This document shows positions 15,151 through 36,089 of a DNA stretch of 64,000 nucleotides, piece after piece (the first letter of the stretch is position 1; each line of letters starts with the position of its first letter). Position numbers and translations under genes: made by a program. The notes under the pieces were generated by a model. The model made no database searches, had not been told where the DNA came from, and worked only from the letters and a program-made list of their open reading frames with translations. The stretch comes from Peribacillus simplex (GTDB lineage: Bacteria; Bacillota; Bacilli; Bacillales; DSM-1321): the NCBI RefSeq assembly GCF_001542915.1, contig NZ_LNNH01000018.1, positions 1-64,000 of the forward strand, read 5' to 3'.

Positions 15151-15192
15151 TGTTTTTCTTCTTTTTTATTTAAAATGACAAGGGGGAAACTA

Positions 15193-20000: not shown

Positions 20001-20203
20001 TAGTCAGAGAGTTTGTAGAGAGCCATAACATTGCGATACAAGTGGGGAATATTTTTAAACACATGAACTTACCATTCTTCGACCCTGATAATGAGCAACA
20101 CGTTGCTCTTGCCGACTATGTACAAGAGGCTCATTCTTCAGGTCTTACAGAAGGGTTGGAAAATGTTATCCAAGAACTGTCTGATTCCATACTTGGACTA
20201 TAA
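17048..20203 (+). CDS. Type IIG restriction-modification enzyme (fused nuclease, N6-adenine methylase, specificity)
   Basis: A 1051-aa protein. An N-terminal PD-(D/E)xK-like nuclease is suggested by VIIEFKSKG near residue 57 after an acidic segment. A helical linker leads to the methylase: motif I FLDPTCGSASFLL near 390, then VWGFDLNPLAVQTARVNY, and motif IV NPPW near 596, the signature of N6-adenine (gamma-class, Eco57I-like) methylases. The C-terminal 300 residues would hold target recognition. I start at TTG 17048, 6 nt after AGAGGTG; a GTG nine bases earlier is in the ribosome site itself. It stands alone, as expected for type IIG. Recognition sequence cannot be predicted. Confidence 0.85.
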   Translation: MYESLYNTLKTAKNKWENEEELRISWIRALSDSLGIDLQAERDRNDSSYNEVIIEFKSKGLFKGKTTSRSFKEAIYDRLKPYIEKKAKGEGLSEGDYIGIAIDGEHICFAKMLDGEIIHDELLPFSLESVTMVATAFKDSFRRAVTAKNLVEDFGLSSDTGHELMQALSDALSMNLLDRKNNKIKMLFEEWRTLFGQVADLTSTQINGIKKSIGFSVSPNLPAHLQIPASLFVIHSYNSLIIKLLAAEIVSAHGMTSKKVFAQTAATYDDERLMRSFSQEIEKGRLFEAAGISGFVEEAIFSWYLDACQHKATREVILSSLRNTLIKMSFYRTDVLVEARTQDVLKGFYQALVPTELRKSLGEYYTPDWLVEFTLDKFEDLNWLGSRFLDPTCGSASFLLGLIKRIRKEAENEELSSRQTLQLITENVWGFDLNPLAVQTARVNYLIAIADLLKMSPGRNVEIPILMADAIYAPSDDPKSDEEVVTYSIGSQIANLTVQIPKSLAFDRKRLDRVFEIMGEQVEQDVEFEKVLGRLVRIKLLREEEAKSWEQPLKATYNRILDLHRESWNGIWFRIIRNFFWSANAGEFDVIVGNPPWVRWSKLPELYRKRVKPTCLQYDIFSSTPYHGGNELDISGMITYTVADKWLKEDGYLAFVITQTHFQSPSSEGFRSFRINDEEMLVPISIDDMKELKPFNDAANKTVVALFKKELRSSIDYPVPYNIWRARTGSKRTILPYLPLNKVYEQVQMFEMEANPVNEEKSPWAVLPPGRFKDMKNITGKGGWIQGRKGITADLNGVYFVNIVAVNDEDGLVQIETRPESGKKDIGPKSKYWIEPGMLHPLIKGASDFKKFKVQPKNDLYVLLPNEGIKKEHFETSEELLDTEYQLTKRYFADFRDLLLQRSTRKLYLKDKPYYGVYNVGEYTFAPFKVVWAEQSSKFVSAVVTEKDVPLVGSRPYIPDHKVFFVDFEVAEPAYYLCGLLNSKLVREFVESHNIAIQVGNIFKHMNLPFFDPDNEQHVALADYVQEAHSSGLTEGLENVIQELSDSILGL

Positions 20204-20218
20204 ATAGGAAGGCTATTA

Positions 20219-20260
20219 AAAGTCTGAGAAGCTTAGTTGCTTGCTCAGACTTCCTTTTCT
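20219..20260 (+). terminator. Terminator of the type IIG gene
   Basis: AGTCTGAG / CTCAGACT arms with a 15-nt loop, followed by TTCCTTTTCT, 16 nt after the stop codon. Confidence 0.75.
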
Positions 20261-20291
20261 AGTACCCATCATTCGGATGCAACGAATACCA

Positions 20292-20316
20292 GGGCGGCCA
20301 CAGGTGGCCCTTTTTT
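20292..20316 (+). terminator. Second terminator hairpin
   Basis: GGGCGGCCA / TGGCCC arms with a short loop are followed by six T. It is a back-up stop for rightward transcription. Confidence 0.75.
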
Positions 20317-20320
20317 CTTG

Positions 20321-20356
20321 AAACGTTCAGAGCATTTTATACTCTGAACGTTTTTC
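20321..20356 (-). terminator. Terminator of the SEFIR gene
   Basis: AAACGTTCAGAG / CTCTGAACGTTT arms with flanking A and T runs, immediately 3' of the minus-strand SEFIR gene. It can work in both directions. Confidence 0.85.
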
Positions 20357-20363
20357 TGTTGCT

Positions 20364-21806
20364 TTATAACGAAGCAATATCTTCTGGACGAATAATCGTA
20401 TTTTTGATGAACATCAAAGATCTCGTGTTCCCTACACGCTCAAGATAATCCTTGAAACCTTTTACTAATTTCTTCATCTCTTCCACATCGGAAATGCCAA
20501 ACATGAGTTTAACACTTTCAAAGAACCTTTTCGATTTCAGTTTTGCCATGAATGAAATCCTTTCGTTGGTAAAATAAGGGGCTGTAGGCGGATTCCAGCT
20601 AAAATAATCATTCAATTTATCGAATGAGCAGCTTAGGAAATATAACAGAAAATCGGCCTGAACTAGGTCGGCAGTTGTTATCCCCTTATAGTTGGCTCTG
20701 TCTAAAATCAATTGTCCTGAGTTTGATATATATCTCTGGCCGGTTGACGGGTTTGGAGATTCTTCTATAAGTCTAGGATAACTATTAAAAATCCCAATCG
20801 ATCCGTCCAATTCTCTGCCGGTATCATTCAACACGAAATAATGGTTATTGACTAAATCCCTTATAGTTGTATATTTTCTATATTTATACAATAGGGTTAT
20901 CGTGTAGATCATCAGTTCGGTAACGAAGAGTTTCATATGGTCGAACTGATTTTCGGAATAAAGAGAGCCGTTTTGTTTTGTGTAAATGATAGGGTATAAC
21001 GATTCAAAAAAATTAATAATCAGATCAACATCAACTGTTTCTGATTCCCTTATATAAAACTCTATAAATTCAATATAGACATTTCGAAGTTCCACGGTTT
21101 GATGCAGGCTGTTATAGATAGAATTTATAAGTGAGTCAGTATTTGAAACGGTAATGGCAAATGAGGCAAAGTCCTCTTTAAACGTCTCGCTGAATTCCTG
21201 GGTATAGATATCGATGTTTCGGGGCCTTTTTTCTACATTGTGCCGAAACCTACTCAGTGCCCTTCGGCTCTCCAATGCTGTTTTTTTTTCATCTTGTAGG
21301 AGAAAAGACGGGGCTTTCCCCCTTATTGGCCGGACATATTCTGGTTTCCCATACAAATTCCGCAGTAATTTTTCATATCCATCTTCATAACTTTGCTCGG
21401 AAGACATGTCAATATATTTTGTTCCCTTAAGGTAGGTGGGGATATACGCTTCCCCATCAACACTTCTTTGGGTGATAATTGGGATGAATTTCGTCTGCTT
21501 CACATCTTGATAGACTTCATTTGAAATAATGACAGTCTCGGTCCCCACTCCACCTTCAAACCCATCAGCCTTTTTAGCATACTTTTCATCACAAATAACC
21601 AATACTTTTGTAATAGTGGGGTCATTAACGCTTCTTTGCATAAAAGCGTTCAGGTTTTGCCCTTCGGTGCTGTCCCATTTATCGATAACTACTGATACCC
21701 CATTACTTTCCAGCCTTTCTGCTAGCTCCAGTACCCATTTTTCATGTTCTGGACTAGACCAGGCATAGGATATGAACAACTTGTCTGCGTTTAATTCTTC
21801 CATCAT
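20364..21806 (-). CDS. SEFIR-domain protein, probable single-gene anti-phage defence
   Basis: A 480-aa protein. The N-terminal SEFIR (TIR-related) domain spans about residues 7-150: KLFISYAWSSPEHEKWVLELAERL, VVIDKWD, VLVICDEKYAKKAD, GGVGTETVIIS and KFIPII are the classic bacterial SEFIR blocks. The rest (about 180-480) is a helical region without a known family, likely the sensor. SEFIR proteins of this layout in Bacillus are known to protect by NAD depletion after phage sensing; that role here is inference from family. ATG 21806 sits 7 nt from GGGGG; the in-frame TTG at 21812 is less well placed. Monocistronic. Confidence 0.87.
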   Translation of the reverse strand: MMEELNADKLFISYAWSSPEHEKWVLELAERLESNGVSVVIDKWDSTEGQNLNAFMQRSVNDPTITKVLVICDEKYAKKADGFEGGVGTETVIISNEVYQDVKQTKFIPIITQRSVDGEAYIPTYLKGTKYIDMSSEQSYEDGYEKLLRNLYGKPEYVRPIRGKAPSFLLQDEKKTALESRRALSRFRHNVEKRPRNIDIYTQEFSETFKEDFASFAITVSNTDSLINSIYNSLHQTVELRNVYIEFIEFYIRESETVDVDLIINFFESLYPIIYTKQNGSLYSENQFDHMKLFVTELMIYTITLLYKYRKYTTIRDLVNNHYFVLNDTGRELDGSIGIFNSYPRLIEESPNPSTGQRYISNSGQLILDRANYKGITTADLVQADFLLYFLSCSFDKLNDYFSWNPPTAPYFTNERISFMAKLKSKRFFESVKLMFGISDVEEMKKLVKGFKDYLERVGNTRSLMFIKNTIIRPEDIASL

Positions 21807-21985
21807 ACCCAATCCCCCATAAATTTATCAGATTATAATAAATTGAATTGCTATTATTTTCATTTCCAATTATGGCTTTCCTGTATACACCGTTCACTTT
21901 TTGGGTTATGGATTCCCCTATTCTTCCATTCTTATTTTATATCTTTATGAAAATGGCAGCAAGCTAAATTAATACCTCCTTTTTC

Positions 21986-22005
21986 AATTAACGGGGCAGC
22001 ATTCC
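21986..22005. repeat. GGGGCAG repeat, copy 2 (degenerate)
   Basis: AATTAACGGGGCAGCATTCC: the left arm and centre of the palindrome are kept, the right arm is decayed. Confidence 0.5.
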
Positions 22006-22453
22006 GGTAATGAATGAAAATAAGACTTGTTCACCAAAAGACCTCATGTTATCCCAAAGCTCGACAGCAAAGGACAAATACATCAAAATGGGAACTAATT
22101 GTGGAATTAAATTTCTTTAATTTAGGCCTAAATCAAACATAACCTTTCGTTACTTCCATTAAATGTTAGATTGTGTTAGAAGAGAGTTTTTTGTTATTTC
22201 ATCAAAAACTTTTGTTTGTGATGATTAAGTAACTATCCCTAGACCAAACAACATAAAAAAATATTTCAGAGCCATTGAAGTATATCCTATAATGATTAAT
22301 TTAGGTCGATGTAAAATCCCAATCATATTAAGAGTTTTTTAAGAACACTTGCTATCTTAGGTAGCTTTTTTATTTTTCCTTAATTTTCTACCAAGAGATT
22401 TTTATTGGTGATAAAAAAATTAGAAATGGTAAACGCTAGTTTGAAAAATCTAG

Positions 22454-22513
22454 GAAGACCATCATGATTTAGATCGTGATAATGATGGAATGGCTTGTGA
22501 TTGGTATCCTTGA
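22454..22513 (+). pseudogene. Relic of an excalibur calcium-binding domain
   Basis: In one frame the sequence reads EDHHDLDRDNDGMACDWYP and then stops. DxDxDGxxC is the signature of the excalibur domain found at the C-terminus of secreted nucleases and small surface proteins of bacilli. A stop codon lies directly upstream and no start exists, so this is a C-terminal fragment. Confidence 0.55.
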
Positions 22514-22565
22514 GGTACTGATTAGATGTTGTTAATAAGATTATTGGATTGTTTCCTTCTTATGT

Positions 22566-22588
22566 AACTAACGGGGCAGGATAGTTGA
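22566..22588. repeat. GGGGCAG palindromic repeat, copy 3
   Basis: AACTAACGGGGCAGGATAGTTG: arms AACTA/TAGTT around the conserved centre. Confidence 0.7.
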
Positions 22589-22608
22589 AGAGTACTGTTT
22601 AATCTTTG

Positions 22609-22632
22609 TTCAACAATTGGGCCAGAATGTTG
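22609..22632. repeat. GGGGCAG repeat, copy 4 (degenerate)
   Basis: TTCAACAATTGGGCCAGAATGTTGA: arms TCAACA/TGTTGA with a centre related to the other copies, only about 20 nt after copy 3. Confidence 0.45.
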
Positions 22633-22752
22633 AGTAAAGAAATGGTTGTTTTATGTTAAACTAAAAGAAAGGTAGGATTAGTTAATAAAGGTAAAAAGTG
22701 TAAAGTTATAGCGTTTTAGACTAGGTTTCTATGAAAGGTGTGAATATAATAC

Positions 22753-23685
22753 ATGTCATATCAAGTTCTAACAGATTCTGACGTTTTGAGATTGACTAGA
22801 ATGAAACCCGTCATTGAGGCAATTGAGCGCGTTTTTCGTGAACAAGCAAACGCAACCCTTGTTTCACCACCTCGATTTCAATTGGAGACGGAGAATGGAA
22901 ACTTAGTTTTCACTGCTGGAGCCGCAACGGAGACTGAAAAAGTTATAGGCTTTCGAGTTTACGATACCTATTCAAACGATCATTCGGGTCACGAACAATT
23001 GGTATCTGTGTTTGATTCCGTGACAGGAGTATTCAAAGGCGTTATTATTGGCAATTCACTTGGTGCCCTTCGCACTGGCGCAATTGGGGGAGCTGCCATT
23101 AAAGCCATGTCTCGTTCAGATGCTGAAAAGCTAGCGATAATTGGAACAGGTATACAAGCTCGTACTCAGTTAGAAGCAGCTATAGCTATTCGTGATATCA
23201 AACGGGTTGTGGTTTACAGTCGTAATGATATAAATCGAAAGAAGTTTGCCGAAGAAATGTCTGAAAAACTTGATATGGATGTAATTCCTATGGATTCCCC
23301 CAAAAAGTGTGTGGAGAAGGCAGATATCATCATCTGTGCTACAAATAGTCGTTCACCAGTGATCGATGCAGATTGGTTAAAACCGGGTGTACATATCAAT
23401 ACTGTTGGACCAAAATCGATGAATGGGCATGAGCTACCCATAGAAGTAGCTGGTAAAAGCTCCGTAATTACTACAGATTCCCTTGAACAGTTATGTGCCT
23501 ATTCAACACCTCACTTCTTAGCCAATACTCCTTATGAGCAGAATATTGTACAGCTTTCGGACATCATAACTGGAAAGACACCGGGCAGAACTTCAATCAA
23601 TGATGTTACATTGTTTTGTTCCGTGGGACTTTCTGGCACTGAAGTGGTTGTCGCACATGAGATTATGAACATGGCTGAAAAGTAA
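22753..23685 (+). CDS. Ornithine cyclodeaminase / mu-crystallin family NAD(P)-dependent enzyme
   Basis: A 310-aa protein of the OCD/mu-crystallin family, which includes ornithine cyclodeaminase, alanine dehydrogenase and ketimine reductases. Visible features are GALRTGAIGGAAIKAMSR (about 110-127), the Rossmann motif IIGTGIQARTQLEA (about 133-146) and HINTVGPKSMNGHELP (about 212-227). The ATG follows AAAGGTG. It sits alone between defence-type genes with its own terminator. Substrate cannot be told from sequence; siderophore or opine-type synthesis partners are absent nearby. Confidence 0.85.
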   Translation: MSYQVLTDSDVLRLTRMKPVIEAIERVFREQANATLVSPPRFQLETENGNLVFTAGAATETEKVIGFRVYDTYSNDHSGHEQLVSVFDSVTGVFKGVIIGNSLGALRTGAIGGAAIKAMSRSDAEKLAIIGTGIQARTQLEAAIAIRDIKRVVVYSRNDINRKKFAEEMSEKLDMDVIPMDSPKKCVEKADIIICATNSRSPVIDADWLKPGVHINTVGPKSMNGHELPIEVAGKSSVITTDSLEQLCAYSTPHFLANTPYEQNIVQLSDIITGKTPGRTSINDVTLFCSVGLSGTEVVVAHEIMNMAEK

Positions 23686-23710
23686 GCGAGGAATCTTCCT
23701 CGCTTTTCTT
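23685..23710 (+). terminator. Terminator of the cyclodeaminase-family gene
   Basis: AGCGAGGAA / TTCCTCGCT hairpin followed by TTTTCTT, directly after the stop codon. Confidence 0.9.
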
Positions 23711-23806
23711 AATGAACTAACACAGGTGCGTGCGATAGCTGAAGATTGGAGCTGTCTTTAAGGTAGCTTTTTCTTTATGGAACTAACGGGGCAGGATAGT
23801 TCCATA
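23709..23806. repeat. ~100-bp composite repeat, copy A (contains GGGGCAG palindrome copy 5)
   Basis: The order is GGTGCGT, TAGCTGAAGAT, GGAGCTGTCTTTAAGG, AGCTTTTTCTT, ATGGAACTA and then the palindrome GGAACTA-CGGGGCAGGA-TAGTTCC at 23779-23803. The same order recurs at 24650-24748. The inner AGCTGTCTTTAAGGTAGCT with following T run could act as a terminator. Confidence 0.7.
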
Positions 23807-23926
23807 AGGTATTAAAAAAAGATGAAGAAATAAGAGTAAGCATCCTTTCAAGGGTGCTTTTTATCTGGATATAGGATAGTATTATTTTTGAAACTACATA
23901 CTTTTAAATAAGTGGTGATATAGAAA

Positions 23927-24463
23927 ATGTCAAATATTTATGTGTCTGACCAACTAGAGAATGCTATTGATTTTCTAGAGCAAGCAGGTTCTTATTATAG
24001 AAAATATGGTTACAATCATAGGTTTAAATGGGTTTGTATCAGTTTACATGGAGCACTTTATGGTTTTGCTGTTACTTATGTAAAGTCGGGAAATCCTCTA
24101 GATACAATTTTTAAGAACACTGAAAAAGAAACAAGTAAATGGCGCTTGTTGAGTATCATGGAAATATTGAAGTTGTGTAAGAAAGAAGAATTGATACAAA
24201 GTGTTAATGGAAAAGTTCTAGTTTTAACAGAGAAGCAGAAAATAGCTATTGAAAGATTAAATGAATATAGAAATTCATTTTCTCATTTCGGTGCAAGTGG
24301 ATACTCTGTAATAGGAACAATTGACGAAATTGTGGAGCCTGTTCTTGAAGTAATAAGGTATTTAATATTGGAAAGCAATAGAATTATTTGCTCATCAAAT
24401 AAAAAAGTAAAAATAGAACGAACTTTATCTTCATTTGAAAACGAAGTGAAAAATAATATTTAA
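23927..24463 (+). CDS. HEPN-like protein, hypothetical
   Basis: A 178-aa mostly helical protein. Residues about 112-117 read RNSFSHF, which fits the R-x4-H active-site pattern of HEPN ribonucleases, set in a long helix as the family requires, and the N-terminal segment (LENAIDFLEQAGSYYRKYGYNHRFKWVCISLHGALYGFAV) looks like the first two HEPN helices. No full family assignment is possible by eye. The start follows AAGTGGTGA. It is monocistronic with a clear terminator, and it lies between an enzyme gene and the RT-primase gene in the defence-like block. It could be a single-gene toxin, an abortive-infection factor or an inactive HEPN. Confidence 0.6.
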   Translation: MSNIYVSDQLENAIDFLEQAGSYYRKYGYNHRFKWVCISLHGALYGFAVTYVKSGNPLDTIFKNTEKETSKWRLLSIMEILKLCKKEELIQSVNGKVLVLTEKQKIAIERLNEYRNSFSHFGASGYSVIGTIDEIVEPVLEVIRYLILESNRIICSSNKKVKIERTLSSFENEVKNNI

Positions 24464-24488
24464 GACATCCACTTTGGGTGTCTTTTTA
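24463..24488 (+). terminator. Terminator of the HEPN-like gene
   Basis: AGACATCCA / TGGGTGTCT hairpin with a short loop and TTTTT, overlapping the stop region. Confidence 0.85.
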
Positions 24489-24649
24489 TTTTGCAAATAG
24501 GAATGGCTGAAATGAGAATTGCTGATCACTTATCAGATAAACACCAACTGAGTAAGATAGAAGACTTAAGAAGAAACGTAAGTCTAAATCTAAGCCTAAA
24601 CAAACGGGTGCAAGAGTTTATGATAGTTTATGATTCAGCTGCCATTTTG

Positions 24650-24748
24650 TCGACTTTTCTTATTGAAGTAACGGGTGCGTTAGCTGAAGATCGGAGCTGT
24701 CTTTAAGGCAGCTTTTTCTTATGGAACTATAGGGGCAGTTTAGCTGCA
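24650..24748. repeat. ~100-bp composite repeat, copy B (contains GGGGCAG palindrome copy 6)
   Basis: Same element order as the copy at 23709, ending with GGAACTATAGGGGCAGTTTAGCTGC at 24723-24747. Identity to the first copy is high in GGAGCTGTCTTTAAGG and in AGCTTTTTCTT. Confidence 0.65.
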
Positions 24749-24892
24749 TAAGAAATGGTATAATTTAGAGAAAAATAGGGTGGAGTAACGGATACAATAG
24801 AGGGTTTAGCAGATCTGAATTATAGCAACTTTTTTGTTGTGCTGACAGTTCAGTGTTATGCAATAACAAAGAAGTAGAGAGAGGGATGTGGA

Positions 24893-24949
24893 ATGTCGTT
24901 TATAAAAAAATTGGTTATTTGTGTGACATTCTTCAACAAATACACCTAA
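24893..24949 (+). pseudogene. Relic of a signal peptide or lipoprotein N-terminus
   Basis: A start codon with GAGAGGGA upstream opens a frame MSFIKKLVICVTFFNKYT that stops after 18 codons. The beginning looks like a secretion signal whose gene has been cut off. A link with the excalibur relic at 22.5 kb is possible but unproven. Confidence 0.3.
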
Positions 24950-25162
24950 TTTAGTTAATTCTAAAATAAATAGTTAAACGATAAAAAAGTATAAAGCCTG
25001 TCTAAAATAAGTTTTATTATATTTCTATGGTAATATATAAGGGGTAATTTAGAACAATAGTTATATTATACTAATTTATGGTCGTATTATATATTTATGG
25101 AAAATAAAGTTATTGTTAAACAAGGGTTTTGGATTTATTATTTACTAGTTATTAGGAGGAAA

Positions 25163-25216
25163 TTGTTAAATGTGAACAAAGGGTGGTTAGGGATAAAGGT
25201 AATACAATTAATATAA
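25163..25216 (+). CDS. Possible 17-aa leader peptide before the RT-primase gene
   Basis: The strongest ribosome site of the interval, TAGGAGGA at 25153-25160, is followed 2-3 nt later by TTG opening MLNVNKGWLGIKVIQLI and a stop. The large gene begins 37 nt downstream with a weaker site. This may be a leader peptide or a chance site within an untranslated RNA. Confidence 0.3.
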   Translation: MLNVNKGWLGIKVIQLI

Positions 25217-25253
25217 AGATGTAAGAATTGAAATCCTGAAAAGAGGAATACAT

Positions 25254-28200
25254 ATGGAATTAACTCAAGATTTAACTGAAAATTTAGTGCATTGTGTTTC
25301 GAGAAAAATATTTAATTACTTTTTTTATAACAGGAAGTATTTCGGGCGACAAGTAGTAGGGGAAGATGGGAAAGTAGTTTATGTTCGAAAAAGAAATAAA
25401 ATGTCAGCTGCGATTTTAGAGAACATGATTAATTCTAAGAAAAGCATTATGAGCTACCAACAAGTAAGGCAAAAATTAAAATGGGTTTGTTTAGATATTG
25501 ATATTGCAAAAGATAAAATTGACAGTGACTTTGATTTTTTTAAAAATACAGAGCTGAGAAATTCATTGTATAAGGTATATAGTGAAACTGTTAAGATTTT
25601 AAATAAATATAATATAAAATATGTATCTGAGTTTTCAGGGAATAGAGGAATACATGTATGGATATTCCTTGATAAAGAGGTAAGTAAAAATATTGGCTAT
25701 GCTATTATAAAAAAAATTGATGAAGAATTACAAATTAATATAAAAAATTTATTGGGAATTATATTAACAGATAAGTATCCTAAAAATGGTTCCGCAAAAA
25801 ATAATACAATAGGTTTGGGGGTCAAAGTACCTCTATCATTCCATTTGAAAAGTAATAGATATTCTTATCTTTTCAAAGAGACTTCAGAGATTGAACAAAT
25901 AGCTGTTTTAGATAATGAGTTTCTAGAAAAACAAATGAATATATTGGACAATATCAAAATAAACTCTGTTTCAGAATTAATTGAATCATTAAAAATCAAT
26001 GAAGTAAATGAAGAAGAAAATTACCAAAAGAAAAATATGGTTCTTACGGATCAGGATATTAATCTTGAAGGAATAATAGAAGTATTATCGAAATCAGAGA
26101 TTTTCAGATACTTATTTGATAAACCATTAGCTCATTGGAGTGAGCGTGATAGAATAGTTTTAGTAGCATCGCTTATTAGAATTAAATCTATTAATGATGA
26201 TAACTTTGGCGTTAGATTATTAAATGAGTTCTTTTCTAGTGATGAAGAGTCTTATGATGCGGATGTAACGAATGAAAAGCTACAAAATTTAAAAGGTTTA
26301 TACCCACCTAATATAAAATATCTCGAAGATTTATATAAAAAGGAATGTAGTTATTGTAGGGAAAATGGGATAGAGAATATATATGATTTATTAGATTTAC
26401 ATTTAGAGCTTAAAATTGAGTTGATTTCTAATGACCTTGTGAATTTTGGCAAAATAGCACAGTCTGAATTGAATTACTTATTGCAAAATGATGAGGTACC
26501 ATTAACTTTTATACAAGATGATCTCAAAAATATTAATGATGAAAATTTAAAAGACGATATACAAAAAATATATGAGAAAAATTATAGTTTTAAAAATATA
26601 GTGTCGTATCAGTATGTTAGAAAGGAAACTGAAATAAAAAATAGGCATATGTATAGTTTAGCGGCTAAGGATAGAATACTGAGTACATATATGTCATCAA
26701 AACTTACGGATTATATGTACGGAGATTTTTCAGTTAACAGTTATGCATACCGTCTAAACAAACGTAATAATAATTATATATTCGAAAATTGGAGTAAGGC
26801 GTGGCTAGAGTATGTATATAGTATTGAGGGCATAATTAATGATGGGAGTTATGATGAATATTATTTGATTAAATTAGATATAAAATCTTTTTACGATTCT
26901 ATTGATCATATTGCATTACGAGAAGTACTATTAAAAAAAATAAAATTAAATGTAAATCCAATAAAAGAGAATGAAATTTTTCCTATTATTCATTATCTAA
27001 TTGAACTATCTAAGGAAATAACTGGTTCAGATAAAGGTGTCCCCCAAGGTCCTGCATACGCTAGAATATTAGCAGAACTTTATCTCAGTCAGGTGGATGA
27101 AGTAATTGAATCGTATCTTGATGAAGATTTTGAAAGTTATTATAGATATGTCGATGATATGTTTATTATTCTTAGAGATAAAACTAGAGCAAATGAAATA
27201 TTTCAAAATGTTCAACAAGTCTTAGATACCTTAAAGCTAGATATTAATATGGAAAATGAAAAATTTCAATTTGGTGTAGTTAAGGACTTAAAGTACAAGG
27301 TTATTACGAAGAGTTTTGAAAAGTATTTTGTCGATGGAGTAGATTATATTGGTGCAAGCGATGAATTAATTAATAATACAAAAAAATTATTAAATGAGCT
27401 GTTAACTACTGAGTTTAATGAAGTAGATGTTAAACAATTGCCGTTCTATTTGACACATTTAATAGATAAAGAAATATTTGATTCTAGAAAAAGAGAAATT
27501 GGAGAAATGATATTAAAAAGTGACATTGGTAGAGGTAGTCTGTTTAAACACTTTTATAATAATATTTTATTTGTTGATAAAGATTTAAAGTTTGAGTTGG
27601 ATTTATTGATAAATTTACAGGGTCTTGCTAGAAGCAACTTATTTTCGGCATTAATTAAAAACTTTAATAAATATGATAAAGATGTGCTTAAAAAAATAAT
27701 AACATCATATTCCTCCAAAAAAGATCTCTTAGATTATGAAAGAATAGAATTAATAAGGTTGATTATTTTCTCTAAAATAGATACAAGTGATATTAATTTT
27801 GAAACAGAAGATTTGGATATAATAATTGATAATTTAAAGTATGCAAATGAATTTAGTCTTGGCGAAGAATTGGAGTCAGAGATTTTAACTAGATTTCAAT
27901 TTAAAGGAAACTTAAATCCGTTAACAATTTTAGAAGACTTGGATTATTTTCTTGAGAAGGCTGAGAATTTAAAGAGACTAGACAAAGTTGTTAATACCTT
28001 TGAAAGTATAATTAATATATCGCTTAACAAAAACCTAAATCAATCTAATGGGCAGAGTCTAGTTAATTTAGTATGTTTTTTAAGCTTGTATAGCAATATA
28101 CATTTAGAGGGATTCAAGGGCATGTGGAAGAAAGTGCTTAACTTGGACAAAAATTTTCCAGTTTCAATGAATGAATGGTATAAGTACAAAAAACATATTG

Positions 28201-30581
28201 TATGGCAATCAGTTGAAGAACAAAATCTCATTATGATTATAAGTGATGTGCTAAATGATAGAGCTTTATTTCCAGAGGAGCCTGTAAGTCAAAGGGAAAA
28301 AGAATTTGTTGTATACCTACTACTCTTCATACTAGATCCAAATAGTAATATTAAATCAAAAATTCAAGATGTTAATTTAGATCAAATCAAAGGAATAATT
28401 AAAGAAAAAAATATAGAGTTTTTGAAGTGGTGCATTGATGAAAATACAGATTATTTCCCGGATTTACCAGAAGTACCTAGACTCAATACTTATTACAATA
28501 AACGGGTTGTCTTTAGAAAACAAAACAAGTTATTAGTTCGAGCTAATGCAAAACTGAAAGACCATATTCAAGTGAACGCAGTACTAAATGATAGTTGGCT
28601 GAATGGAGACGAGTATATAAATTTTATATTAGAAATAAAAACTAATGAAGAACTGATGAATATAAATGATAAATTACGTGGGAAAGATTTGATTTATGGA
28701 ATTAAGTTAATATATGGAATATTCCAATTGATAAATAAAGGTCATTTATATAATTACTTTGAAAAAGGAACTTTTGTTAATTCATCAGAAGATATACATT
28801 TCAAATATTCTATGTATGATGAAAAAATAGTAGTTAATAAAATGAATTTATTTGATAATACTCCGAAAAGAGTTAAACAGGAAATTATGGATTTATTAAG
28901 TGACGGGGACTTACTAGAGAAAAATAAAGACGCATATCAATACAGTCCAACAAATTTTAAAAGTGAATTTATACCTAGGAATATAACTGATGAGGATATA
29001 ATAAATTATGTAAATTTTTTGGGTAAATATTTAAATGAAAATTTAAAAGAAGGTGAGATTGATCCAATAAAAATAGAAAAAGCAAAATTATATGCTTTAA
29101 AGAAAATTATTAAAAGTAGTAAAAAGAATTTTAAGGAAGTTGACTTTGTAAATGCTTATGCATCCTTATCTCCGCATGATTTTGACAGATTAATTGTGTT
29201 TGAGAATGATAGAACTAAAATACAAGATAAATTATTATTTGAGCTTTTTAAGGGGATAACCGATAGAATTAAATTTGACATATTTGAAGAACTTAATGGT
29301 TTTTTCAAAGAAATAGAAATTGCGAAAGAAAGAGTAGAGAAATATTTTTCTAGTGAACCTAAAAGGTTAAATAATATTATAAAAGATTATAAGAAACCTA
29401 ATATAGTTTGGATTGAAGAAAAAGAAAAAAATCTGGAAAATGTTAAAATCCTCTATCCTTTTGAACATGAAGATTTAGAAATTATTCCTTCTAACGAAGT
29501 TGCAAATTTAGATGCAAGATATGCATTATATTCTGATAGTCAGTTTGATATAATAATTGCTATTCCTTTACAGGGTTTAATTTCAATAAAAGAAAAAATA
29601 TCTATGATAGACAATAAGAAAGTAGTTCAACTATTGAATAGTAAGAGAAATGCATTAAAAAGTTTAGTATGCTTTAAAGAATCGAGTAAAAAGATACAAA
29701 AACAGAATAATATAAGTGAGAATGAATCTTATCATAGAATATGGAGATTTTTGGACAAATTTGAAGAACAGTACCATGAAGCTTTACTAAAATTGATTGC
29801 TGCATATGAAGTAATTGATGAGCAGATGTGTATTGAATTTTTTAAAGGCCTGATTGAAATAAGTGAAGAAAAGAATGTTTGTCTTCTACCTTTGAAAACT
29901 AAGGAAGATGATAATGGATTCAATGTAATGGTTACGAATATAGGAAGAGATTATGGGTTCGATAGAAATTCAATTTATCAAAATAAAATATGGGAGGACT
30001 TCCGTATCATTAATGATTGTGCTGCGAATCAAGAATATAAATCACTAGCCTTTGTTTTAGATATTGGTATAAGTGGAAAGCAATTTAGGACCACGCTGCA
30101 CAATTACCTTTATCCATCTAAGGATAAACCTTTATCCGAGGAATACTTTAAAATTGATAGTGAATCTTTAAAAGATTTTATGAAACAATTAGACGAAATT
30201 ATTATTTTTTCTGTTGTTCATACGGATGTTTTTGAAGAAAACGTTACTAAAAAGATTCAACAAATATATGAAAGTTTGAAAAGTAAAATGCCAAATTTAA
30301 AATTTAGAGGAAAAAAGATATATAAGGAACAAAGTACATTCAGTAAAAAGTTAGATTATAAAGAAAGAAAATTAATTATTAAATCGTTTGAAGAACCCCG
30401 TTTTACAGACAAAAAGCTTTATATGAGTAACGATACATTCGTTAAATATTTGAAGTCTATAGAAGAAGAGAAAACTAGTAATATTTTAATTGCTAGATAC
30501 AAAAGTATGCCTAAAGCTCATTTAATACCATTAACAGAAAAATTCGGCGTATTTAATTATAGGTATGACTCTAAAAACTAA
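25254..30581 (+). CDS. Giant primase - reverse transcriptase fusion protein, putative defence effector
   Basis: A 1775-aa protein, much more AT-rich than its surroundings. Residues about 1-250 form an archaeo-eukaryotic primase (TOTE-like) domain: CLDIDIA at 79-85 gives the acidic metal pair and FSGNRGIHVWIF at 127-138 the catalytic histidine motif. A CSYC pair follows at 365-368. Residues about 440-720 are a reverse transcriptase: KLDIKSFYDSID (540-551), GVPQGPAYARILAELYL (595-611) and YVDD (632-635) are all intact. Residues 720-1500 are helical and unassigned. The last 180 residues (VLDIGISGKQF near 1602, IIIFSVVHTD near 1653, and a closing PKAHLIPL) resemble a degenerate phosphoribosyltransferase-type domain. 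The start follows AGAGG. No cas genes, retron repeats or group II intron domains are seen nearby. Domain calls for primase and RT are firm; the C-terminal call is tentative. Confidence 0.88.
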   Translation: MELTQDLTENLVHCVSRKIFNYFFYNRKYFGRQVVGEDGKVVYVRKRNKMSAAILENMINSKKSIMSYQQVRQKLKWVCLDIDIAKDKIDSDFDFFKNTELRNSLYKVYSETVKILNKYNIKYVSEFSGNRGIHVWIFLDKEVSKNIGYAIIKKIDEELQINIKNLLGIILTDKYPKNGSAKNNTIGLGVKVPLSFHLKSNRYSYLFKETSEIEQIAVLDNEFLEKQMNILDNIKINSVSELIESLKINEVNEEENYQKKNMVLTDQDINLEGIIEVLSKSEIFRYLFDKPLAHWSERDRIVLVASLIRIKSINDDNFGVRLLNEFFSSDEESYDADVTNEKLQNLKGLYPPNIKYLEDLYKKECSYCRENGIENIYDLLDLHLELKIELISNDLVNFGKIAQSELNYLLQNDEVPLTFIQDDLKNINDENLKDDIQKIYEKNYSFKNIVSYQYVRKETEIKNRHMYSLAAKDRILSTYMSSKLTDYMYGDFSVNSYAYRLNKRNNNYIFENWSKAWLEYVYSIEGIINDGSYDEYYLIKLDIKSFYDSIDHIALREVLLKKIKLNVNPIKENEIFPIIHYLIELSKEITGSDKGVPQGPAYARILAELYLSQVDEVIESYLDEDFESYYRYVDDMFIILRDKTRANEIFQNVQQVLDTLKLDINMENEKFQFGVVKDLKYKVITKSFEKYFVDGVDYIGASDELINNTKKLLNELLTTEFNEVDVKQLPFYLTHLIDKEIFDSRKREIGEMILKSDIGRGSLFKHFYNNILFVDKDLKFELDLLINLQGLARSNLFSALIKNFNKYDKDVLKKIITSYSSKKDLLDYERIELIRLIIFSKIDTSDINFETEDLDIIIDNLKYANEFSLGEELESEILTRFQFKGNLNPLTILEDLDYFLEKAENLKRLDKVVNTFESIINISLNKNLNQSNGQSLVNLVCFLSLYSNIHLEGFKGMWKKVLNLDKNFPVSMNEWYKYKKHIVWQSVEEQNLIMIISDVLNDRALFPEEPVSQREKEFVVYLLLFILDPNSNIKSKIQDVNLDQIKGIIKEKNIEFLKWCIDENTDYFPDLPEVPRLNTYYNKRVVFRKQNKLLVRANAKLKDHIQVNAVLNDSWLNGDEYINFILEIKTNEELMNINDKLRGKDLIYGIKLIYGIFQLINKGHLYNYFEKGTFVNSSEDIHFKYSMYDEKIVVNKMNLFDNTPKRVKQEIMDLLSDGDLLEKNKDAYQYSPTNFKSEFIPRNITDEDIINYVNFLGKYLNENLKEGEIDPIKIEKAKLYALKKIIKSSKKNFKEVDFVNAYASLSPHDFDRLIVFENDRTKIQDKLLFELFKGITDRIKFDIFEELNGFFKEIEIAKERVEKYFSSEPKRLNNIIKDYKKPNIVWIEEKEKNLENVKILYPFEHEDLEIIPSNEVANLDARYALYSDSQFDIIIAIPLQGLISIKEKISMIDNKKVVQLLNSKRNALKSLVCFKESSKKIQKQNNISENESYHRIWRFLDKFEEQYHEALLKLIAAYEVIDEQMCIEFFKGLIEISEEKNVCLLPLKTKEDDNGFNVMVTNIGRDYGFDRNSIYQNKIWEDFRIINDCAANQEYKSLAFVLDIGISGKQFRTTLHNYLYPSKDKPLSEEYFKIDSESLKDFMKQLDEIIIFSVVHTDVFEENVTKKIQQIYESLKSKMPNLKFRGKKIYKEQSTFSKKLDYKERKLIIKSFEEPRFTDKKLYMSNDTFVKYLKSIEEEKTSNILIARYKSMPKAHLIPLTEKFGVFNYRYDSKN

Positions 30582-31319: not shown

Positions 31320-31568
31320 TTATTCTTCCATTAATTCAACTAATAGATTTTCAAAACGACTAATCGTACTTGTTGCTTCCTTCATAATTTGAAAGTTCAT
31401 TTCTATTATTCTTTCTAAACGCACTTCGTTTTCATTTCTTTCTGGTTCATATGCAACCTTTTCTACAACTGATTTAAGAAACTCTTGTCTTGATATTGAT
31501 TTTCTTTTTGCCATTTCATCGATTTTTTTCATTGCTACTGGGTCTATGTTTCTTAAAAAAATATCCAT
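31320..31568 (-). CDS. Ribbon-helix-helix type small protein
   Basis: An 82-aa protein starting MDIFLRNIDPVAMKKIDEMAKRKSISRQEFLKSVVE, which fits a ribbon-helix-helix fold (beta strand, two helices). A helical tail of about 35 residues follows. The ribosome site AAAGGAGAG is strong. RHH proteins of this kind on mobile elements act as plasmid copy or relaxosome accessory regulators. It lies next to the repeat-rich region at 31.65-31.90 kb, which would be a natural target. Confidence 0.7.
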   Translation of the reverse strand: MDIFLRNIDPVAMKKIDEMAKRKSISRQEFLKSVVEKVAYEPERNENEVRLERIIEMNFQIMKEATSTISRFENLLVELMEE

Positions 31569-31646
31569 TGTTTAACTCTCCTTTTGGACAAAATCAAAAA
31601 TCTGGATTAAAAAGACTTAGAGTTAGAAAGAGCATAAGGAAAAACT

Positions 31647-31904
31647 GATATCACCAAGGGTGATATCCTAGGCAAAGCCTAGTGTTTTATATGATATCGT
31701 TAATTTCTTTCAGGTGGGCTGACATGGGACTCCTGTTTGATATAGGTGGGCTGACGTGGGATACCTGAACTTTCTCAGATGGACTGATGTGGGTCTTAAA
31801 TAATAATTAAAAAGCAGTCATTTAGTGATATCACTAAATGTTAATCAATGTCCCCTTTGTGTCCCCCTATTTTCGACCAATGTCCCCTTCGCGTCCCCCT
31901 ATTT
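31647..31904. repeat. Hairpin and 32-bp-spaced repeat block (origin or oriT candidate)
   Basis: Three perfect or near-perfect hairpins are packed here: GATATCACC-AAG-GGTGATATC (31647-31667), CTAGGC-AAA-GCCTAG (31668-31682) and the palindrome CATTTAGTGAT/ATCACTAAATG (31819-31840). Between them GGTGGGCTGACATGGGA-type units start at 31713, 31745 and 31778, about 32-33 bp apart. After them a 27-bp unit CAATGTCCCCTT...GTCCCCCTATTT is repeated at 31846 and 31878, again 32 bp apart. Confidence 0.8.
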
Positions 31905-31957
31905 AATTGAATGTTATTTTAAAAAAGAAAAGGAAACCTTCTCTTTCATTCACTTTT

Positions 31958-33838
31958 TTATTGGTTTTTTCGACGGAATTTAGCGATGTTGTTTCTTAGA
32001 CTTTCGCTTGTATTTTGACCAATTTGATAGGTGCGTTTAACCGTTTTTACTGACGGGCTGTTCCGCACATTATCAGAAATTATGCTTCCAACATGACGAG
32101 TTTCTCGATCAGTTCTTTTTTCTTGTAGTGGTGTTTTCATATTAGATTCTCCTTGCATTTCAGATGAAACCAAAGGGGAATTTGATTGTGAGAAGGAAGG
32201 TGATGAAGGAATGGGACTGTAGTAGTCACCTGACGTTTTCTCACTTTTTTGTATATCGCCATTGTTCATTTGGCTTGGCGATCCAGATGAAATGGAGTGT
32301 GGACTGTTTACAGCTGCACTCCGTTTTCCATTACCGGAGACACCATTCAGAGCCATTTGATCATGTAATCCTATTACTTTTCCTCTACCTGTTTGCCCTT
32401 CTTGTTGTTGTTGTTGTTGTTGTGCCATTTTTTGTTCAATAGAAGAAGCAACTTCTTGCGTTCCAGTTTCGATTTCCCAGGAACCTTTCGAACCATTTGG
32501 ACTTTGTTTTTCTTGATTTTGATTTTGTGCTTTTAAATCTACAGAATGAGCACTTTCGGAACCATTCGGAGTCTGTTCTCTGGATTGGTCCTGTCCTATT
32601 GCTCTAAGGCCTTGTGCCATTCCTGCAATACCACTTACACCCTTCAATGCGGCAGATTTACCTTCACTTGATAATCCTTTCAGTGTATTTGCAGCACCCT
32701 TTGTTGCACCCGTTACGCCTTTTGCAATAGTATAACCACCGGCTACGGCACCCCAGCTAGATTTCAGTCCTGCATCAATACCAAATAACCGTTCAACGAT
32801 ATTGGGACCATCAATTACAGCAAGAGAGAAAGCAAATAATGCAATTAAATAGGCGACACCATCCAATTTATCGGTAATAAACTCTGTTCCAATCAGATAG
32901 ATTTTCATTGATAGGAAAATCATAATTGTCACTAGAAAAGTATTTAGGATACTTTGAAGGATTTGCTTTGTCTTTTGCCCTGAATGAATATCAGCAGGGG
33001 CTATAATGATTGCTAATACGTAGTTGAATGTTAATTCAAAGAACAGTTTTGCTAACTTAATAGCAATTGTCAGCATAGTGAAGGCTGTAATAGCTAATGT
33101 TATGGCGATTGTCCAAAAGTTCCAATCCCAACGGTAATACTTTTCTTTAAACGCAGTGAACCAACCATCATCTAACTCAACTTTCTTTGGATTACCTAAA
33201 TCGTCATACTCCAAACGATTAGAAAAAACCCCAAGTCCTATTTCAGACATTTCTTTAGCTTCCCCTGCGGGATCAAAATCCTTATCAATCGCCTGTGTAA
33301 TATTAATTTTTAAAATTCGATCTTTCGGAACTCGGTTTGGATGGTTAAGCTCAGTTGTTTTCCAACCCGTTGCATCAAATTGAGCAAGATCAGTCATATT
33401 GTCTTTAATAACTTTTTGACTAATTGAACCTTCTTCAACAACATCAAGAGCATCAATAGCTTTATCTGTGAATTGGTTTGCTTTTTCCATACCTTCTTGT
33501 ACCAAAGCGAAAAAAAACATTATCATAAACACATTCACTATAATGGCTTCGCGATCCAACTTTTTTTGAAAAATAAGCTGATATCCTGTGTAGAGAAGCG
33601 AAAACCCCATCAATATAACAGAAAGAGGAATAAGGAATTCTACAAAACTTGTAATTTCAGCACTGTCATAAAACATTTTTAAACCCAGGATTGAATCCGT
33701 TATGTTTGATAGGGAATCAACAAGCCATGCCAAACCCTTTATAATGGCCCACCCGATCAAACGTAGCATGTACGAGATTGGATTGGTCATTTCGAGAAAA
33801 TCAGAAAATTTTTCAAGTATCCTTGCTACTTCATCCAT
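31958..33838 (-). CDS. VirB6/TrbL-like conjugation membrane protein (pLS20_p028 type)
   Basis: A 626-aa membrane protein. Hydrophobic segments at about 15-35, 65-90, 95-110, 245-270, 275-295, 310-330 and 340-360 form the channel part; the last 260 residues are Ala/Gly-rich then Gln/Ser-rich and hydrophilic, with a QQQQQQQ run near 470. This layout is that of polytopic VirB6/TrbL-type channel proteins of Gram-positive conjugation systems, and pLS20-type proteins in bacilli are the nearest match I recall. Good ribosome site (AGGAGGGG). Other conjugation genes (VirB4, coupling ATPase, relaxase) are missing, so this is a leftover of a larger module. Confidence 0.72.
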   Translation of the reverse strand: MDEVARILEKFSDFLEMTNPISYMLRLIGWAIIKGLAWLVDSLSNITDSILGLKMFYDSAEITSFVEFLIPLSVILMGFSLLYTGYQLIFQKKLDREAIIVNVFMIMFFFALVQEGMEKANQFTDKAIDALDVVEEGSISQKVIKDNMTDLAQFDATGWKTTELNHPNRVPKDRILKINITQAIDKDFDPAGEAKEMSEIGLGVFSNRLEYDDLGNPKKVELDDGWFTAFKEKYYRWDWNFWTIAITLAITAFTMLTIAIKLAKLFFELTFNYVLAIIIAPADIHSGQKTKQILQSILNTFLVTIMIFLSMKIYLIGTEFITDKLDGVAYLIALFAFSLAVIDGPNIVERLFGIDAGLKSSWGAVAGGYTIAKGVTGATKGAANTLKGLSSEGKSAALKGVSGIAGMAQGLRAIGQDQSREQTPNGSESAHSVDLKAQNQNQEKQSPNGSKGSWEIETGTQEVASSIEQKMAQQQQQQQEGQTGRGKVIGLHDQMALNGVSGNGKRSAAVNSPHSISSGSPSQMNNGDIQKSEKTSGDYYSPIPSSPSFSQSNSPLVSSEMQGESNMKTPLQEKRTDRETRHVGSIISDNVRNSPSVKTVKRTYQIGQNTSESLRNNIAKFRRKNQ

Positions 33839-33914: not shown

Positions 33915-34376
33915 TTAATCATGTTTCATTTTTTGAACGAATTTTTCAACCTCGCCAGAAACATCATCTTCTGAAATATCCTTAAAATTCAATTCATCTT
34001 TGATTTCACCCTTTTGATAAAAGGCTAAGGTTCCTGAATTTTGCTCAAGAGTACGTTTTGAAGTATCCTGTTCGTAAAGTTCTGAAGTAGGCAGTTCTTT
34101 TGCATCAAACACATAAAAATCAATCTTTTCAGCCTCGGCAACACGTTCAATTTCGCTTAACTGCATTCGATCACTTTCTTTATCAGAATCAGAATCAAAT
34201 GCTGATTTCACATATAAAAACCCAGTTTTTTTATCTTCCATAAATACTTTAACTTCCTTCAAATCGAGTTCAGTAGCTTTTCCGATCCCTCCATTAATAC
34301 CATCACTCTCACAAGCTGATACAACCAACACAAACAATAAAACAAGACAGCCACTAAAAACCTTTTTTAAATTCAT
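33915..34376 (-). CDS. Lipoprotein of the conjugation remnant
   Basis: A 153-aa protein with a lipoprotein signal (MNLKKVFSGCLVLLFVLVVSAC; lipobox VSAC, Cys22). The mature part alternates short beta strands and helices (VKVFMEDKKTGFLYVK, IDFYVFDAKEL, GTLAFYQKGEIKDEL) in an order that resembles a thioredoxin fold lacking the CxxC motif. It is encoded upstream of and collinear with the VirB6-like gene, so a surface role in the same mating channel is likely. No precise family is recognised. Confidence 0.65.
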   Translation of the reverse strand: MNLKKVFSGCLVLLFVLVVSACESDGINGGIGKATELDLKEVKVFMEDKKTGFLYVKSAFDSDSDKESDRMQLSEIERVAEAEKIDFYVFDAKELPTSELYEQDTSKRTLEQNSGTLAFYQKGEIKDELNFKDISEDDVSGEVEKFVQKMKHD

Positions 34377-34763: not shown

Positions 34764-34788
34764 ATGGGCGGCATGATGTAATCTTCGC
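34764..34788. mobile_element. Attachment site copy 2 (right end of first element)
   Basis: ATGGGCGGCATGATGTAATC followed by TTCGC repeats the groEL tail with one mismatch in 25. An AAATCCC/AGGGATTT hairpin follows, as at copy 3. Confidence 0.85.
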
Positions 34789-34821
34789 TTAAATCCCTTA
34801 ATACAGGGATTTAACGAGGAT

Positions 34822-35025
34822 TCAGAATGAATGCTCACCAATCATGTGAATATCTTTAAATTTAAAGGCCTCCCACGGTTTACTGTGGGAGGCCTTTTTT
34901 TTGTTATCAGTCATATGAGCATGGATAATCATCGTTGTTTGAATATCCGTATGTCCTAATCGTTGTTGAATTTCTTTCAAACCCACCCCTGCTTCGATCA
35001 GTAAGGATGTATGCGTATGCCTAGT
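34822..35025 (-). pseudogene. 3' remnant of a second tyrosine integrase
   Basis: The minus strand encodes RHTHTSLLIEAGVGLKEIQQRLGHTDIQTTMIIHAHM, closely matching the C-terminal catalytic part of the intact integrase (H-x-x-R onward, LGHTD). The position of the catalytic tyrosine is H (MIIHAHM in place of NIYAHM), and everything upstream of the HxxR box is gone. It lies the same short distance inside attachment copy 2 as the intact gene does from copy 1, so it belongs to a separate, mostly deleted element. Confidence 0.8.
34833..34902. repeat. Terminator-like repeat family, copy 1
   Basis: GCTCACC, CATGTGAATATCTTTAA and AAGGCCTCCCAC/GTGGGAGGCCTT hairpin with T run. Related copies are at 36023, 41699 and 47203. 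Here it overlaps the end of the integrase remnant. Confidence 0.75.
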
Positions 35026-35203
35026 CCCACATAGCATTTGGGTTCAGTTACTAAATCATCTGGAAAACAAGAAAAACCTATTACTGATCTCTACGCTGCC
35101 ATATATCCAAGGAGGGCTTTTTTATATGAATAACTGTTGAACGTAGGATTAGTATTGAATGCAGTGTACTGTGATACGTGGATCATAAAACGTTCTTTAG
35201 AAA

Positions 35204-35425
35204 ATGTTTTGGCTTGAGTGGGAGGTTTGTTCCCTCGACTGTTTTGTAGAGCTCATTCCCTTCTATTATGTATGGGTGCCCAGCCGCAAGGAAGTAAATG
35301 GGGGGAAAGGAAGGAAGCTGAAAGTCAGCCAGGTCAAAAAAGCAACTGAAACCCACTTATCAGCAAAGATCGGGTTTGCAAGAAAGTATTTCGGAAAGGA
35401 TAAAAGGAAAAGCGGGGAACCCTGA
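35204..35425 (+). CDS. Hypothetical protein, doubtful
   Basis: A 73-aa frame. The second half (VPSRKEVNGGKGRKLKVSQVKKATETHLSAKIGFARKYFG) is basic and reads like protein; the first half does not. An inner GTG could be the true start. The stop is followed at once by a strong terminator, which favours a real gene end. No family is recognised. Confidence 0.35.
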   Translation: MFWLEWEVCSLDCFVELIPFYYVWVPSRKEVNGGKGRKLKVSQVKKATETHLSAKIGFARKYFGKDKRKSGEP

Positions 35426-35450
35426 ATTATCAGTGTTTTCCCCGCTTTTT
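35408..35450. terminator. Bidirectional terminator
   Basis: AAAAGCGGGGAA / TTCCCCGCTTTT hairpin between two convergent small genes. Confidence 0.85.
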
Positions 35451-35467
35451 ATCATTTAATATTTGAG

Positions 35468-35614
35468 TTACATATAATCATAAACAGAGTCATCGAAATA
35501 GAGCCAGTGATAATATTCAACCTGTGAATCCGTCATCTTGGAAATGTCTTTCTCATTGAACTTTTGTTGCTCAATTAATTTCTGCGCTTTGGAATTTCTT
35601 TCTACTTGGCTCAT
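35468..35614 (-). CDS. Small BH0509-like protein (48 aa)
   Basis: A 48-aa frame, MSQVERNSKAQKLIEQQKFN...DISKMTDSQVEYYHWLYFDD, with an excellent AAGGAGGA ribosome site. The layout (basic N-terminal helix, then MTDxxVExxY) resembles the small BH0509-family proteins common in bacilli; this is by eye. It lies in the second element remnant. Function unknown. Confidence 0.6.
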   Translation of the reverse strand: MSQVERNSKAQKLIEQQKFNEKDISKMTDSQVEYYHWLYFDDSVYDYM

Positions 35615-35961
35615 CTTAAATCCTCCTTATAATATGAGAAGTAACGAAGTATTTAAATGTTGAAAACGCTTTCTTTTTTATCTTATTTTTATTATATATC
35701 TCAATGTTAGATTAAACAAATATCAAATATAGATGAATTTTAAGGATATAATATAGAAATGGTATTTATCTATTTACTTTGAAGCAGTTAATGAGACAAG
35801 GTCGGATTTCCAAAGCTTGATTTTTGTTAAGGAGTAGGGATTTGATTCAAAGGTGCCGAATGGATGCCGAAAATGTTATTATTTTAAATTTTTGAGTGAA
35901 TATCCTAGTTTAGAACGTATGTTTTGTTATGTGTTTTAATTAAGGTTAAATTGTATGATGC

Positions 35962-35982
35962 GCGGCATGATGTAATCATCGC
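35962..35982. mobile_element. Attachment site copy 3 (right end of second element remnant)
   Basis: GCGGCATGATGTAATCATCGC matches the groEL tail (9994-10014) in all 21 positions. A hairpin AAATCC/GGATTT and GAGG.TTCAGAATG follow, as at copy 2. Confidence 0.85.
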
Positions 35983-36022
35983 TTAAATCCTCTAATAAAG
36001 GATTTAACGAGGTTCAGAATGT

Positions 36023-36089
36023 GCTCACCTAACATGTGAATATCTTTAACGTTGAAGGCCTCCCACAGTTACTGTGGGAGGCCTTTTCT
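36023..36089. repeat. Terminator-like repeat family, copy 2
   Basis: GCTCACC, ACATGTGAATATCTTTAACG and GGCCTCCCAC/GTGGGAGGCC hairpin. It lies the same distance after attachment copy 3 as copy 1 does after attachment copy 2, so these two copies share a long common segment. Confidence 0.75.

Follow-up and report, generated by a model that had tools for sequence, protein, structure and literature searches.

Within the 64,000-nt stretch of Peribacillus simplex DNA analysed here (the window), an integrated element of about 24.8 kb occupies positions 9990–34783, bordered by two copies of a 20-nt sequence from the groEL 3′ end (attL, 9990–10009; attR, 34764–34783). Its groEL-side end encodes a tyrosine integrase (10112–11290, minus strand; PF00589, 9.9e-30) and a Prim-Pol/DUF927 primase-helicase (12424–14859, plus strand). 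The cargo (17039–30581) carries defence genes that PADLOC assigns to a type IIG restriction–modification system (17039–20203), bSEFIR (20364–21812) and a DRT UG10 reverse transcriptase (25254–30581). The last of these has 1775 aa with a TOTE-type primase domain and a GC content of 25–28%, below that of the rest of the window, and a gene of the ornithine cyclodeaminase family (22753–23685) lies within the same cargo. The right end holds a compact cassette read on the minus strand: a small gene that is lipoprotein-like by its N terminus, as judged by eye (33915–34376), an intact gene for a conjugation membrane protein of the pLS20_p028 family (31958–33838; NF045890, 1.8e-131), the intergenic region that is our subject, and a gene for an 82-aa ribbon–helix–helix (RHH) accessory protein with the β strand M-D-I-F-L-R (31320–31568; NF050181 VapB-like RHH, 7.1e-08, below the cut-off). 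Among the element genes that were scanned, there was no relaxase (Pfam), VirB4 or VirD4.

The stretch 9990–34783 is an insertion, because in another genome of the same species (G018) the site is empty and groEL continues directly into the sequence right of 34764. A related 21-nt copy of the repeat lies at 35962, an integrase fragment is seen at 34822–35037, and G018 still has the 34764–36085 stretch; groEL is a hot spot of serial insertions. A sibling element sits in groEL of another species (G001), with a left end 97.7% identical over 6.4 kb including the groEL end, a right end matching from 31272 onwards at 89.8%, and a different cargo, in which PADLOC finds NsnABC and RmrA. In G013 and G034, one contig carries a groEL-side end (integrase and primase, about 67–75% DNA identity) and another the oriT-side end; in G004, too, the right end and groEL are on different contigs. 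Near the oriT in G013 and G004, where borders are partly established, QueC was the sole PADLOC match among five proteins.

A predicted pWBG749/pLS20-type origin of transfer (oriT), whose relaxase family is MobP2 (also called MOBL), spans 31628–31904. At one end is the oriT core, 5′-CCTTATGCTCTT-3′ (31628–31639, minus strand), which is the predicted nic region and is common to the pLS20 oriT region; within it, CTTATGCTCTT matches exactly at 31628–31638 on the minus strand and is identical to the published pWBG749 core. Three stems follow, each supported by folding and covariation: the outer stem IR1 (31641–31688; AAAAC at 31641–31645 with GTTTT at 31684–31688), the hairpin IR2 (GATATCACC/GGTGATATC, 31647–31667) and the hairpin IR3 (CTAGGC-AAA-GCCTAG, 31668–31682). 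The IR2 arm includes the word GATATC at 31647–31652, a predicted ossB site, and the same word recurs as a predicted ossA site at 31693–31698, 46 bp from ossB. On the far side lie two families of accessory repeats on the plus strand, separated by a perfect palindrome. Family 1 (31712–31800) comprises three 24-nt copies at 31712, 31744 and 31777, spaced 32 and 33 bp, the later copies being 88% and 63% identical to the first; family 2 (31846–31904) comprises two 27-nt copies at 31846 and 31878, spaced 32 bp and 93% identical, each with a pair of GTCCCC words. The 22-bp palindrome (31819–31840) contains a fourth GATATC (31827–31832) and is a candidate extra RHH site; by eye it is present in sibling loci too, sometimes imperfectly.

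A preliminary description of this DNA had noted hairpins and two repeat families spaced 32–33 bp at 31647–31904. These are present as described and exceed what shuffling produces; the feature is somewhat longer than stated, with a conserved core that already starts at 31628. When 31570–31960 was shuffled 1000 times with dinucleotides preserved, the best 24-nt repeat (22/24 matches) was never reached, the 22-bp palindrome was reached once and the longest stem (11) twice. As a single strand, the core folds with z = −6.2 (minus) or −4.5 (plus), and its minimum free energy structure is exactly the IR1–IR3 branched hairpin, whereas the repeat stretches are without a folding signal (z = −0.01 and 0.31). 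A search of the 64 kb that allowed up to 3 mismatches found neither repeat word outside this region. In this search the family-2 word greatly exceeds chance, with none of 100 shuffles reaching it. The 16-nt word of family 1, taken alone, does not: its 2 matches, although both exact, are equalled in number in 9 of 100 shuffles. The preliminary description had also set the repeats against iterons of an origin at the left, a comparison that was not confirmed: no such iterons were found, and 14850–17050 holds one 17-nt pair only.

Outside this element, the core is linked to MobP2 relaxases. The left 76 bp of the region (31630–31705) match 68 of 72,556 plasmid records (E up to 1), of which 45 are typed as non-mobilizable and some are as small as 1.6–4.9 kb; in records with a conjugation operon, the matching stretch is followed directly by an RHH gene and a MobP2 relaxase. 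Of 40 MobP2 loci, 37 have the core, with at most 1 mismatch, in the upstream 3.5 kb and in the expected orientation, the three without it being L065, L069 and L084; the 40 include 13 that are closely related (Halobacillus and neighbours). Controls gave far lower counts: 3/40 for the core on the other strand upstream, 4/40 for the downstream 3.5 kb on either strand, and 1/40 for the reversed motif. The core is kept in Bacilli and Clostridia. There were matches in Enterococcus and Lacticaseibacillus. Phages gave no match, and IMG/VR held one MobP2 locus and no p028. A MOBV reading of the TAGTG-TTTTA stretch was dropped once the MobP2 linkage and the pLS20 match had been seen.

The core/hairpin pattern also occurs apart from the relaxase. 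It is present in 42 of 397 genomes of the order, compared with 10 for the reversed pattern (as read from the table), and 10 of the 27 pattern-bearing genomes that were re-examined lack a MobP2 match. Within the genus, 11 of 36 genomes have the core and none of the 36 has MobP2; the host genome has no match either, so no resident helper is known for the element. Twelve loci carry two oriTs 0.2–0.9 kb apart (L015, L023, L025, L086, L098, L145, L146, L173, L183, L185, L186 and L199), 11 of the pairs being on opposite strands; in 9 of the 12, the two oriTs on one replicon belong to different specificity classes, against 56% expected, numbers too few for a claim.

The branched hairpin shows covariation. 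Homologous sites were selected for at most 1 core mismatch and a perfect IR3 stem at least 5 long, and 46 diverse cores were aligned (49 picked; L006 and L141 excluded because no hairpins were seen by eye, and L218 because of one core mismatch). For the 20 proposed pairs, 78.3% of cells are consistent with pairing, compared with 58.3% after shuffling; changes on both sides occur in 18 pairs (14.6 shuffled) and 213 cells (84.4 ± 8.3 shuffled), and the covariation score is 0.519, compared with 0.204 shuffled and at most 0.214 with partners slid. The number of further pair types, 45, is not above that in shuffles (43.0; 137/500). Both-side changes are seen in 5/5 pairs of IR1 (helix 1), 7/9 pairs of IR2 (helix 3) and 6/6 pairs of IR3 (helix 2), of which the 5-bp hairpin was a selection criterion; since sites were selected on the core and an IR3-like stem, the free evidence of covariation comes from IR1 and IR2. 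This selection also accounts in part for the ten invariant columns of the core; the terminal C of the oss word, which stood outside the selection criteria, is invariant too. An ossA-like word accompanies ossB in 91 of 133 sites, at a distance of 44–46 bp in 88 of the 91, and is absent from the other 42 in the range searched. This spacing, 46 bp in the window, contrasts with the 65–67 bp reported for staphylococci (PMC8136818).

The phased repeats, whose absence from all related elements would have counted against the preliminary description, have counterparts there: 57 of 121 distinct homologous regions have significant direct repeats beyond the hairpins (reached in at most 5 of 100 shuffles), compared with 7 of 111 control regions, although these 57 are not independent events because the regions are related. 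Their spacings cluster at about 11, 22, 32, 43 and 54 bp, with 34 of the 57 at 31–34, and the repeat words vary between homologues while the core and hairpin are kept. This survey therefore makes three-turn phasing a family trait. By analogy with what has been reported for Aux2 of pLS20, we infer that the phased repeats may be docking sites for an accessory complex.

The core and the start of the RHH gene downstream of it are 59 nt apart, with the presumed sites just upstream of the gene, and the RHH product is 46% and 45% identical to products of genes that adjoin MobP2 relaxases; no relatives were found in the PDB. In staphylococci, the RHH protein SmpO is reported to bind GNNNNC words, ossA and ossB (Yui Eto 2021, PMC8136818); GATATCA is the word of SmpO49, which has phenylalanine at position 7, TGGGGTCA is that of SmpO45, and the substitution F7K swaps the specificity (PMC8136818). 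Across the present set, this one β-strand residue fits the site class in 50 of 52 distinct RHH/oriT pairs, the residue and word classes having been drawn up after the data were seen: F, L, I or V with GATATC, GATAGC, GATAAC, GTTAGC or GCTAAC (28/30), K with GGGGGC, GGGGAC or GGGTAC (8/8), R with GGGAAC (10/10), T with GGTTGC (2/2) and N with GGTGCC (2/2). L185 and L194 are the exceptions. Scored by majority, 28 of 29 clusters fit at 80% identity and 21 of 22 at 60%, and none of 100,000 permutations did as well; such scoring hides L185 and the mixed clusters at 60%, leaving L194 as the visible exception. Shared descent weakens the test, as it leaves only 5 independent pairs on well-supported branches of the RHH tree, of which about 4.4 agree and 0 oppose (median p 0.125). 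Of the 68 open frames near cores, 15 are without the RHH signature. Three of the 15 (L058, L067 and L098) agree with the code on visual inspection, L072 pairs H with GATACC, and the remaining frames look spurious. By its sequence, the window protein (MDIFLR, with phenylalanine as in SmpO49) fits the code with its GATATC sites. By eye, residue 2 of the strand appears as a second co-varying position: a strand beginning MD mostly accompanies a hydrophobic residue and GATATC-like sites, and one beginning ME mostly K or R and GGG sites.

The cassette as a whole recurs. Plasmid NZ_CP128117 (11,426 bp) has the same order of lipoprotein, p028, oriT and RHH genes, with identities of 59% (lipoprotein), 60.5% (p028) and 46% (RHH), followed by a further small gene; its 12 listed features, in a table that may be incomplete, include no relaxase, VirB4 or VirD4. 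There the RHH strand reads MELKIR and the oriT word is GGGGAC, and by these sequences the plasmid carries the same kit with another specificity. The further gene (L224, 4999–5433), for which no counterpart was seen at that place in the window, encodes 144 aa and is perhaps a second auxiliary protein. On the MobP2 plasmid p3 of Priestia filamentosa, different genes lie between oriT and VirB4. Five of the 36 genus genomes have a p028-family gene above the cut-off, and the core is present in each of them. In four siblings the core is unchanged and ω is 0.19–0.32 for p028, 0.39–0.57 for the lipoprotein gene and 0.17–0.22 for RHH, the last being rough ratios because dS is above 1 in three RHH pairs; the right-end p028-family and RHH genes are under purifying selection. 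The p028 protein has no Pfam match and no PDB relative, and an AlphaFold model of its residues 1–376 made without an alignment has a pLDDT of 43.

From these sequence comparisons, we consider it very probable that the region is the oriT of an integrative mobilizable element that lacks a MobP2 relaxase of its own and is nicked in trans by that of a helper. Of the three functions that the preliminary description had offered, oriT is strongly supported, and the pLS20-type relaxase that it named belongs to the right family. Direct repeats at three helical turns beside palindromes, in an element with a primase-helicase gene, might instead suggest a replication origin of plasmid type, equipped with iterons and DnaA-like boxes. 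However, that gene is about 17 kb away, near the other element end, the repeats adjoin an oriT core linked to MobP2 in 37/40 loci, and it is the repeat words that differ among homologues and the core and hairpin that are kept; we found no support for such an origin and regard it as extremely unlikely. Scarcely more probable is a site serving the RHH protein alone, either for partition (parS-like) or as an operator. The position of the presumed sites just upstream of the RHH gene and the autoregulation suggested for SmpO (PMC8136818) would suit an operator, but the retention of an 11-nt core and of a hairpin with three covarying stems, in both Bacilli and Clostridia, would hardly be expected of one; for partition there was likewise no support, with no ParA-type match among the scanned neighbours. 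Autoregulation may exist on top of oriT function.

An oriT that is dead, left over from an integrated conjugative element that lost its transfer genes and now unused, is a more serious alternative, yet still an improbable one. The absence of a relaxase, VirB4 and VirD4 among the scanned element genes and the lack of MobP2 in all 36 genus genomes would agree with it, as would a p028 that is broken in G029 and decayed copies, whose frames for RHH and the p028 region are short, on plasmids of 305 and 249 kb. Against it stand the intact, above-cut-off p028 genes in five genus genomes, each with the core, the low ω of p028 and RHH (0.17–0.32 together, and rough, given dS above 1 in three RHH pairs), the unchanged core of the four siblings and the recurrence of the cassette on the 11.4-kb plasmid. 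The preliminary description had spoken of a conjugative remnant, a view that is not supported: the unit sits in a bounded integrated element, the same cassette is found on a small plasmid, and its p028-family and RHH genes are unbroken, with purifying selection on them seen across four other genomes. The element is probably not a decaying remnant, and it probably travels by means of conjugation machinery that other plasmids supply.

As a mobilizable element, it would be excised from groEL by its integrase. Its own RHH protein would bind the GATATC sites in the IR2 arm, in ossA and perhaps in the palindrome, and the helically phased repeats would organize a higher-order complex; the MobP2 (MOBL) relaxase of a co-resident conjugative plasmid would then recognize the branched hairpin and nick the CTTATGCTCTT core, and the nicked strand would exit through the helper's type IV secretion system (T4SS). 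Because the element carries its own oriT–RHH pair, it should accept helpers of other oriT subtypes, following the precedent of OT45 and smpO. A more far-reaching proposal, which we put forward tentatively and think somewhat unlikely, is that the element is a Gram-positive counterpart of SGI1: a portable kit of lipoprotein, p028-family channel protein, oriT and RHH would let it hijack MobP2 plasmids generally, with the RHH protein re-labelling the site for the foreign relaxase and p028 replacing a helper subunit, in a family where one residue would largely set site specificity (F, L, I or V for GATATC-like words, K for GGGGNC or GGGTAC, R for GGGAAC, and T or N for GGTTGC or GGTGCC). As part of that same tentative proposal, the p028 swap would favour the hitcher or evade exclusion, and the element would be a groEL-specific defence island.

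If mobilization is true, it would explain the spread of anti-phage genes in groEL islands. The core/hairpin pattern provides a search pattern for hidden hitchers, and the residue code offers a recognition code, occurring in nature and open to testing, for the RHH proteins of relaxosomes. Further, the shared architecture joins the pLS20 and pWBG749 oriT literatures; among the papers listed in literature searches, none was seen to join the two oriTs.

The pLS20 oriT is reported as a 362-bp intergenic fragment proven by mobilization (PMC5313138), and we place it, with approximate borders, at L030 2541–2900, which holds the published nic and Aux1 words. This stretch contains AAGAGCATAAGG, both hairpins, the outer stem and a third arm, TGGTACCA, in the same order as in the window, the arm being the reported Aux1 site (PMC5675868), and the pLS20 relaxase, annotated mobL, belongs to the MobP2 family. 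As in the window, the pLS20 oriT lies upstream of the RHH gene with accessory repeats on the far side; unlike the element, pLS20 encodes the relaxase along with a complete T4SS. Its nic, as published, falls outside the shared core by about 40 bp, on the strand opposite the RHH-coding one as we read the report (PMC5313138), and, in the loci examined, L030 and L200 alone have the exact 20-mer around it, while L071 has a near copy. By contrast, the pWBG749 nic is reported as delimited to 16 bp around the core, within CCTTATGCTCTTACGG (PMC4652767), and it is the core that is common to the family. Because the two oriTs share one architecture, the conflicting positions are directly testable.

For pWBG749 and four other plasmids, O'Brien 2015 reports the core CTTATGCTCTT, IR1–IR3 and accessory repeats (PMC4652767), and pC02, a plasmid of pWBG749 type, encodes MobP2. 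The oriTs and oriT mimics of that family resemble the present region in core, IR1–IR3, adjoining RHH gene and accessory repeats, in GNNNNC words (GATATCA, as in OT49) and in having carriers without a relaxase, and the OT45 oriT reportedly needs its own smpO to be present for mobilization by pWBG749 (PMC4652767, PMC8136818). The present region differs in its groEL-integrated carrier, which encodes its own RHH protein and a T4SS membrane protein, and in the extra 22-bp palindrome. Given the shared core, MobP2 linkage and pLS20/pWBG749 architecture, we file the region as an oriT of the pWBG749 kind in a new setting. The element itself resembles the iOriT elements, described as integrative elements that have an oriT and lack a relaxase (PMC11389934): it has the integrase, att repeats, a precise empty site and the oriT, and the MobP2/MOBL relaxase of its own expected of a MOBL conjugative element has 0 matches in the genome. 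It differs from iOriT elements in carrying its own specificity factor and one mating-channel gene. In this last respect it is like SGI1, a chromosomal hitcher with T4SS subunit genes of its own, whose subunits are reported to enter the helper's mating pore (PMC5389848) and whose TraG reportedly evades entry exclusion (PMC11493245); SGI1 belongs to a different phylum and uses a different helper, and the likeness is drawn without a claim of homology.
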